A DNA stretch of 64,000 nucleotides from Capsulimonadaceae bacterium (GTDB lineage: Bacteria > Armatimonadota > Armatimonadia > Armatimonadales > Capsulimonadaceae): positions 62,001 through 126,000 of the forward strand of contig JARLGU010000051.1 of the NCBI GenBank assembly GCA_031292625.1, read 5' to 3'. The first letter of the stretch is position 1. Each line of letters opens with the position of its first letter. This document shows positions 18,272 to 19,939 of this stretch, in pieces. A program made the position numbers and the translations under genes. The notes beneath the pieces are model-generated. The model was not told where the DNA came from, searched no databases, and was given only the letters and a program-made list of their open reading frames with translations.

Positions 18272-18290
18272 GTTGTTGATATTCAACAAC
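18272..18290. promoter_or_regulatory. Perfect 19-bp palindrome, operator candidate for the Met/Cys-rich gene
   Basis: GTTGTTGATATTCAACAAC: 8-bp arms around TAT. It lies 3 bp upstream of the -35 TTGACA. I do not recognise it as a CopY, CueR, Fur or NsrR box. Position fits an activator or a repressor that contacts the -35 region. Confidence 0.6.
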
Positions 18291-18293
18291 CGC

Positions 18294-18323
18294 TTGACAT
18301 TGGGGCGAGGCGGGGGATATTAT
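18294..18323 (+). promoter_or_regulatory. Strong sigma-70-type promoter of the Met/Cys-rich gene
   Basis: Consensus TTGACA (18294-18299), 18-nt spacer, TATTAT (18318-18323). The predicted start near 18330 gives a leader of about 64 nt with a GGGAG ribosome site 10 nt before the ATG at 18394. Confidence 0.8.
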
Positions 18324-18393
18324 GGACGCGTCGCTACGATGGAATCCGTCAAGCCACGTCGGCGGCGTAAATTAACCTTAGGGAGAAAAATCA

Positions 18394-18867
18394 ATGGAAA
18401 AGACAATGACCATGAGCAAGCCTGGGATGATGGACGCCGGAATGATGATGCCTGGCATGATGATGCCAATGCCCTCAATGGGCATGGGCGCTGGCATGGG
18501 TATGATGGGCATGATGCCGAAGTGTACGATGACCATGGAAATGGTCGAAGGCGGCTGTTGCGTCAAGTGTGTTTGCGCCGACGAGATGTCGGCGATGATG
18601 CTTCAAAAAATGTGCGCCATGATGACGGGCGGCATGTGCGGCATGATGTGCACGATGAACGGCATGATGGTCTCGATGTGCAACATGATGATGGGAACCT
18701 GCAAGATGCAGAACATGGACATGGGCATCATGATGACATGCACGAGCGGCGACGCGAAATGCTGCGAGATGATCCAGTCGTGCTGCAAGTGCATGATGGA
18801 CTGCATGGAGGCCGGTTGCTGCTGCTGCATGACCATGAACGGCATGCCGATGTGCTGCACCTGCTAA
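18394..18867 (+). CDS. Extremely Met- and Cys-rich protein, probable soft-metal binder or sulfur store
   Basis: A 157-aa protein with, by my count, 51 Met and 24 Cys (about 48% of residues) and no His, Arg, Phe, Tyr or Trp. The N-terminal 45 residues are Met clusters (GMMMPGMMMPMPSMGMG); the rest alternates Met runs with Cys groups (GGCCVKCVC, KCCEMIQSCCKCMMDC, GCCCCMTM, MCCTC). There is no signal peptide or membrane helix, so it should act in the cytoplasm. Thioether and thiolate ligands without His suit Cu(I), Ag or Hg; storage of sulfur amino acids is an alternative. It has a consensus promoter, a palindrome just upstream and its own terminator, so it is a regulated single gene. Codon usage dominated by ATG makes the antisense frame His-rich, an artefact. 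I know no named family for it. Confidence 0.85.
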   Translation: MEKTMTMSKPGMMDAGMMMPGMMMPMPSMGMGAGMGMMGMMPKCTMTMEMVEGGCCVKCVCADEMSAMMLQKMCAMMTGGMCGMMCTMNGMMVSMCNMMMGTCKMQNMDMGIMMTCTSGDAKCCEMIQSCCKCMMDCMEAGCCCCMTMNGMPMCCTC

Positions 18868-18894
18868 TCGCGGGCTTGGGCTGTTTTCGCCTCG

Positions 18895-18923
18895 TCGCTC
18901 GGTCAACCATGACCGAGCGATTT
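18895..18923 (+). terminator. Intrinsic terminator of the Met/Cys-rich gene
   Basis: TCGCTCGGTCA (18895-18905) and TGACCGAGCGA (18910-18920) form a perfect 11-bp stem with an ACCA loop, followed by TTT. It lies 28 nt after the stop codon. Confidence 0.8.
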
Positions 18924-19009: not shown

Positions 19010-19240
19010 TTAGTTCCGCCAAGAGCGAGGCATTTCGGCTGGATCCGCTTTGAACTCTGTGACCGTGGTTAGCTCACGCCGGGCTTGCAGCCAGACATAA
19101 CGCCAGAGCATCATCTGGTAGGCATACAGTGGAGCCATGGCGCAAGGGCAGGAGGCGAACGAAGCGGCGCATTGCGCCTGCGGAATGCCCGGTATCTTTT
19201 GCCCGGTTGCGGGGATCTCCGTAATATTCTTTTCTTCCAC
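19010..19240 (-). CDS. Small hypothetical protein in the Rrf2-YezD operon
   Basis: A 76-aa protein starting at GTG with a well-placed AAAGGAG 7 nt upstream, which makes it a credible gene. It contains a Cys cluster (AQCAASFASCPC, three Cys) and an aromatic helix (PLYAYQMMLWRYVWLQARRE). No known family is recognised and no signal peptide is seen. It is the last of three co-directional genes (Rrf2, YezD, this), 36 nt after yezD. Its short Cys motif and position make a role in sulfur or metal handling possible but unproven. Confidence 0.6.
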   Translation of the reverse strand: MEEKNITEIPATGQKIPGIPQAQCAASFASCPCAMAPLYAYQMMLWRYVWLQARRELTTVTEFKADPAEMPRSWRN

Positions 19241-19276: not shown

Positions 19277-19474
19277 CTATACCAACCGGTTCTTTTCCGT
19301 CCGGTCGATTTGAACGACCTTGCCGTCCTGAACGATCACCTGTACGACGCCGTATCTAATTCCCGCGATCGCTTCACGGACCAACTCGATGGGATCCGTT
19401 TGGCGGCTGACCTCGGGCTCTTGTTCGCCTGCCCGGTCGATCTCGGGATTTCTGATTTTGCTATGCGCCGCCAC
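19277..19474 (-). CDS. YezD-like DUF2292 small protein
   Basis: A 65-aa protein whose C-terminal half, VREAIAGIRYGVVQVIVQDGKVVQIDRTEKNRL, fits the YezD/DUF2292 pattern (described here only by its positions about 31-64: a helix, then two strands and the ending RTEK). Starts at GTG with GAGGTG 8 nt upstream overlapping the regulator's stop codon. DUF2292 proteins often lie in sulfur-assimilation or cysteine-linked loci; function is unknown. Second gene of the Rrf2 operon. Confidence 0.75.
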   Translation of the reverse strand: MAAHSKIRNPEIDRAGEQEPEVSRQTDPIELVREAIAGIRYGVVQVIVQDGKVVQIDRTEKNRLV

Positions 19475-19486
19475 TTTTATCCCACC

Positions 19487-19939
19487 TCAAATGTAGTACA
19501 TCAGCTCTTTAACGACAGCGTCGGCGCGGGCCGGGGCGCCGGCATCTTCAGCGAGCACGTCTATGCTGGTCTCTTCGAGAATCGAACGAATGGATTCGCG
19601 CACCCTGCGCAACACGACGCCTACTGGTAGGCCATCGTCCGCATCGTCCGCCCACTGCGGAATGGGCATCAAAAGGCCTTCGAGATGCCGTAGAACCTCC
19701 GCAAGCGTGACCTTCTCCGGCGCGCTGTTCAGCCGGTAGCCGCCGTGCTGACCTCGCCGGCTTTCGAGCAACCCTGCCCGCGCCAGCGGCGCGAGCACCT
19801 GCTCCAGGTACTTCAGCGACGTCTTACACTCGCGTGCAAGCACGGCCACTTGAACAAAGTCGTTGCGACCCCCTTTGTAGTTTCGCACCAGCACGCTGAG
19901 GACTTTAAGCCCATACTGGCTCTTCGTGGTTAGTCGCAT
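19487..19939 (-). CDS. Rrf2-family transcriptional regulator, CymR-like
   Basis: A 150-aa winged-helix regulator: MRLTTKSQYGLKVLSVL opening, recognition region CKTSLKYLEQVLAPLARAG, wing RRGQHGGYRLN, and the dimerisation helix near VLRRVRESIRSIL. It lacks the three-Cys cluster of Fe-S sensing members (IscR, NsrR), so it resembles CymR, the cysteine-metabolism repressor. It leads an operon with yezD and a 76-aa gene, and its promoter reads directly into the ATG. Direct repeats just upstream are candidate binding sites. It may also control the Met/Cys-rich gene 1 kb away, which is conjecture. Confidence 0.85.
   Translation of the reverse strand: MRLTTKSQYGLKVLSVLVRNYKGGRNDFVQVAVLARECKTSLKYLEQVLAPLARAGLLESRRGQHGGYRLNSAPEKVTLAEVLRHLEGLLMPIPQWADDADDGLPVGVVLRRVRESIRSILEETSIDVLAEDAGAPARADAVVKELMYYI

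Follow-up and report, generated by a model that had tools for sequence, protein, structure and literature searches.

The locus raises the question of why a bacterium would maintain, under control signals of its own, a small protein of which almost half consists of methionine and cysteine. The gene lies in the window, by which we mean the whole 64,000-nucleotide stretch of DNA from a Capsulimonadaceae bacterium that was analyzed. The initial annotation counted about 51 Met and 24 Cys in the 157-aa product and saw neither His nor Arg nor any aromatic residue in it, and a recount gave 51 and 24, so that Met and Cys make up 47.8% of what is here termed the Met/Cys-rich (MC) protein, and H, R, F, W and Y are all absent. 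Among the 244 frames of at least 100 codons in the window it is the only one above 10% Met plus Cys (the runner-up has a fraction of 0.10), and the maximum among 1178 frames of at least 100 codons in control regions is 0.125. The gene and its flanking signals are:

18272..18290 (strand not assigned), perfect palindrome GTTGTTGA-TAT-TCAACAAC, candidate operator immediately 5′ of the −35 element
18294..18323 (+), sigma-70-type promoter TTGACA-18-TATTAT, 11 of 12 consensus matches
18380..18385 (+), Shine-Dalgarno sequence AGGGAG, 8 nt before the ATG, read from the sequence
18394..18867 (+), MC gene, 157 aa, from ORF translation, composition and homologues
18894..18921 (+), 12-bp hairpin past the stop codon, perhaps a terminator or the end of the mRNA (z −3.6)

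The reading frame is real and under purifying selection, since dN/dS is 0.04–0.27 in the closest homologue pairs (Nei-Gojobori), and these values together with residue conservation rule out drift or a spurious frame. The earlier view of a regulated gene that had not arisen by drift is thus upheld by a conserved family, by dN/dS and by the promoter and palindrome, both of which were found as described: the promoter is near-consensus, and the palindrome, whose 3′ edge is 3 bp from the −35, is expected by chance 0.01 times in the window. Its position is compatible with either activation or repression of the MC promoter. The "clean terminator" previously assigned to the gene stands in part, in that the hairpin is very stable, but it is followed by ATTTG only, a poor T tract that denies it the status of a canonical intrinsic terminator, and it is absent from the list of the terminator scan. 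A role as a leader peptide or in attenuation was rejected on two grounds: the window has no co-directional gene downstream, and the fold is a conserved one.

The core of the palindrome has no second match at up to one mismatch in the entire genome, which rejects an operator common to a whole regulon, and the next-best genome matches to the full palindrome carry two mismatches; at up to three mismatches there are 30 matches per strand vs. 7 for the reversed control. No copy was seen before the Rrf2 gene of the window (see below), and a GGGAATTATA repeat upstream of that gene was discarded because its frequency is at chance level for the window. At the MC promoters of Isosphaeraceae relatives a different conserved block occupies the place of the palindrome. 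In five Isosphaeraceae-like genomes the best match to this block is the MC promoter, with the exception of G335, where a site away from the MC promoter fits with fewer mismatches, and the other matches in these genomes are equal to, or a few times, the control count.

To what family does the protein belong? The initial annotation knew of no described family of this composition, and none emerged: the window protein matched 0 families in NCBIfam and Pfam at E up to 10 and 0 in PHROGs at E up to 1, it matched no sequence of a solved structure, and the scanned relatives had no match near a curated cut-off in Pfam or NCBIfam, nor in PHROGs (searched with the window protein, the relatives L008 and L092, and one protein of the partner family sm76 described below). 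Homologues themselves proved to be many, in some soil and water bacteria, contrary to the complete lack of them that the initial annotation had listed among its grounds for refutation. An early search of 41 genomes gave two relatives beyond the window protein, a profile search of 291 Armatimonadota genomes gave five matches, two of them distant, and a species-genome scan gave seven loci that included Planctomycetota, one further bacterium, an Opitutia MAG and the Armatimonadetes MAG G004, which is of the same taxonomic family as the genome of the window. With a nine-row profile the MC protein was matched in 62/398 genomes of the class Planctomycetia and in 3/286 of the class Opitutia. Within Armatimonadota three genomes, of the window's family, have relatives, and a plasmid search gave no homologue. 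In a tree of uneven support the Armatimonadota copies group with a Phycisphaerae copy within the spread of Planctomycetia, and transfer of the gene between phyla is possible. One Opitutia copy (L016, about 6262) is broken by unread codons (XX) past KCCCDMI, probably at an assembly gap.

The composition of the window protein is an extreme of a broader pattern. The relatives contain 0–12 F/W/Y/H and 0–5 R, so the lack of His, Arg and aromatic residues is a trait of the window member and is not family-wide. Total Cys plus Met spans 22–48% and the two fractions are inversely related (Spearman −0.68), with the number of Met varying more than tenfold (4 to 57) and that of Cys remaining steady (21 to 35; 27.6 ± 3.1). 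A distant homologue of normal composition with a K/R/T-rich N-terminal tail (L008 in genome G190, 1495–2127, − strand) reaches 77 bits with the family profile, where 2000 shuffles peak at 10.4, and as a query it retrieves an MC protein at E 1.8e-5. Because this ordinary protein is homologous, the Met/Cys bias was probably layered onto an ordinary fold. The vicinity of L008 reads like phage tail genes. A weaker distant relative (L009, 1285–1998, − strand) apparently carries a signal peptide, ends in a YHS-like domain, and adjoins a gene that by eye reads like sulfide:quinone reductase.

Two AlphaFold models agree on the predicted architecture, with pLDDT of about 75–91 over the folded part of both:

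18394..18510 (+), residues 1–39, disordered Met/Gly/Pro-rich N-terminal tail, pLDDT under 50
18520..18684 (+), residues 43–97, repeat 1, beta-beta-alpha-beta-beta
18697..18861 (+), residues 102–156, repeat 2, beta-beta-alpha-beta-beta

The two tandem repeats are related to each other, as their profiles match with a probability of 96% (E 4e-9). No fold stood out in Foldseek searches of the PDB (best E 0.35 and 0.39) or of the viral BFVD (best E 0.14), and VIA-align gave Z of at most 6.2, for matches with no evident relation to the MC protein. In the family alignment about 19 Cys columns are conserved at 80% or more, many of them as CxC or CC in the predicted strands and helix. Mean conservation is 82% for Cys columns and 67% for Met columns, and in the latter Met is replaced by L, C, V, T or I.

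Clues to what the protein does come from its neighbors, which in the window are:

19010..19240 (−), sm76, a 76-aa partner protein with a C-terminal Asn, convergent with the MC gene, from co-occurrence
19277..19474 (−), DUF2292/OscA-like small protein (Pfam PF10055, 3e-16)
19487..19939 (−), Rrf2-family regulator, CymR-like, ending ...ELMYYI (Pfam PF02082, NCBIfam Rrf2 superfamily)

A survey set 50 MC loci against 20 control regions from the same Planctomycetia genomes; its queries were drawn from the surveyed loci, the loci are related by descent and the controls are few. At least one cysteine or sulfur gene or sm76 accompanied the MC gene at 42/50 loci vs. 0/20 controls. Within 2 kb, sm76 was found at 26/50, Rrf2 at 21/50, CysK/CBS at 12/50 and DUF2292 at 8/50 loci, each against 0/20, and gamma-type Cys/Met enzymes, absent from the controls, occurred within 4 kb at 5/50. 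Pfam and NCBIfam confirmed representatives as CysK, cystathionine beta-synthase, a Cys/Met PLP enzyme, cysteine dioxygenase, MsrA and DUF2292, and at L084 sulfate ABC genes, read by eye, adjoin the MC gene. The MC gene is divergent from its neighbors in Isosphaeraceae, convergent in the window and co-directional elsewhere (in some lineages with rrf2 and cysK), and since gene order thus varies among lineages, the association has survived rearrangement. The MC proteins form a new family that is conserved, regulated and part of the cysteine regulon. The initial annotation had preferred a cytoplasmic binder of Cu(I), Ag or Hg, which this context does not favor, as the recurrent neighbors belong to cysteine and methionine metabolism and to Rrf2, and metal genes are not among them.

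The small neighbors add to this picture. sm76 is present in 47/396 genomes, 46 of which are MC-positive, and 46/54 of its copies sit within 2.5 kb of an MC gene, making it a near-obligate partner. Many of its copies show a CP motif and a helix of the YR.A..QA type, the C-terminal residue is Asn in 26/26 aligned rows, and sm76 matched no family in the Pfam, NCBIfam and PHROGs scans. The DUF2292 protein links the locus to the OscA/DUF2292 sulfur-starvation small proteins, with the reservation that the window copy scores 31 bits against NCBIfam OscA, under the cut-off of 85, and that the MC protein itself was unrelated to DUF2292 in every scan.

The regulators resemble CymR of the CymR-CysK regulon of Bacillus and Staphylococcus in their C-terminal Ile and in the cysteine synthase nearby. 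The window Rrf2 is above the cut-offs of PF02082 (86 bits vs. 30) and TIGR00738 (81.9 vs. 73.3). Unlike CymR of those organisms, however, six MC-neighboring Rrf2 proteins score 61–92 bits against the NCBIfam CymR equivalog, below its cut-off of 195. C-terminal Ile motifs are reported to mediate docking to CysK, and CymR is listed among the partners (PMC12895370, PMC4961446). Of the 22 Rrf2 proteins beside MC genes, 19 have Ile and the other 3 have Leu as their last residue; examples of these ends are MYYI, DWTI, DYVI and GDGI. Away from MC, in 11 genomes (L157–L186), 10 of the 19 Rrf2 proteins with a readable end are Ile-ended. A C-terminal Ile is therefore common among Planctomycetia Rrf2 paralogues, and an Ile/Leu end is universal beside MC; the Ile-ended paralogues elsewhere suggest an expanded set of CysK-docking regulators. 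At two loci (L054 in G312 and L056 in G327) Rrf2 genes flank MC on both sides, and the downstream ones end in ADWTI. To our knowledge, the CymR-CysK regulons described so far include neither a Met/Cys-rich protein nor a partner of the sm76 type.

What, then, is the MC protein for? The reading we favor, tentatively and at somewhat less than even confidence, is that it holds cysteine and methionine in reserve in the cytoplasm, or buffers thiols there, under the control of a CymR/CysK-like sensor of cysteine. A cytoplasmic location agrees with the lack of an export signal noted earlier, a scan of eight N-termini having turned up no hydrophobic signal segment. More specifically, and more doubtfully, the system may be a bacterial store of sulfur amino acids in which the Met/Cys-rich protein, the Asn-ended partner and a CysK-docking Rrf2 fill and empty the store according to cysteine status. 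That the Rrf2 protein binds the palindrome and acts through CysK is our inference for such a store, and so are the sign of regulation, the role of the MC protein as a reserve and its mobilization by proteolysis. Ample cysteine, as reported by the CymR-like Rrf2 with cysteine synthase, would switch the MC promoter on, the protein would bank sulfur amino acids in non-toxic form, and under sulfur limitation it would be degraded, returning its Met and Cys to metabolism, where the adjacent cystathionine beta- and gamma-type enzymes of several lineages might help them re-enter. Bacteria bank nitrogen, phosphate, carbon and iron, and plants have Met- or Cys-rich seed storage proteins that are likewise rich in sulfur amino acids, a likeness of composition, in a different kingdom. 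We know of no bacterial protein described as a reserve of sulfur amino acids, and a narrow literature search on sulfur storage and on Met- and Cys-rich Planctomycetes proteins found nothing.

Storage of sulfur amino acids, which the initial annotation had offered as its alternative, fits the gene context better than metal binding does, but the roughly 19 individually conserved Cys positions exceed what a bulk store needs and leave room for metal or thiol chemistry. Total sulfur is also only loosely kept, given the range of Met counts, and this counts against a reserve. The weak point of the reserve is the sign of regulation, since CymR of B. subtilis, the well-studied case, is a repressor when cysteine is present (PMC3828012), and the same sign here would have the MC protein made in sulfur limitation, which would contradict a reserve. 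The co-directional arrangement with rrf2 and cysK would also fit expression at cysteine shortage. The main rival, though less likely, is a cytoplasmic buffer of soft metal, Cu(I) or another, that resembles metallothioneins or copper stores, with a conserved Cys array and Met as helper ligands, and whose tie to the cysteine regulon would reflect cysteine supply gating the synthesis of a protein of about 28 Cys. The dense CxC/CC columns and the constancy of Cys number, which Met number does not share, argue for it, as does altered copper sensitivity in S. aureus cymR mutants (PMC2869319). Small cytosolic Cys-rich Cu(I) stores do exist in bacteria (Csp3, PMC5171941). Csp3, however, folds as a four-helix bundle whose Cys residues face the core (PMC5171941), whereas the MC protein is predicted to be mostly beta, two repeats and a Met-rich tail, and lies in a context of cysteine metabolism that Csp3 does not share. 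It would be unusual for a cytosolic thiolate store to have a Met content as high as one third, the regulators that recur nearby are Ile- or Leu-ended Rrf2 proteins, and a motif scan (not a full annotation) of the 50 loci found no recurrent metal-transport or metal-sensor gene and one P-type ATPase motif.

The same conserved cysteines could instead serve thiol redox chemistry, or buffer and carry persulfide or sulfane sulfur for CysK and related enzymes, beyond a mere reserve. The neighboring CysK, cystathionine enzymes, cysteine dioxygenase and MsrA would suit this role, as would the sulfide:quinone reductase-like gene (by eye) beside the distant secreted relative L009, but redox carriers usually need few Cys, the Met enrichment is left unexplained and we know of no persulfide-transfer motif in the MC protein; we regard it as improbable. 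Far less probable still is a structural or cross-linked protein of the cell envelope, an idea that arises because the family is common in Planctomycetia and Planctomycetes possess Cys-rich YTV wall proteins (PMC8567305). The scanned N-termini have no signal segment of the kind that export would call for, the family extends to Armatimonadota and Opitutia, and its gene context is metabolic.

If the reserve reading is true, the MC protein would represent a new class of storage protein with its own cysteine-sensing control, and if the metal reading is true, a new soft-metal buffer whose fold has no match among solved structures. As the family is widespread and the cultured planctomycete Aquisphaera insulae carries two copies of the MC gene, the question of function is directly testable.
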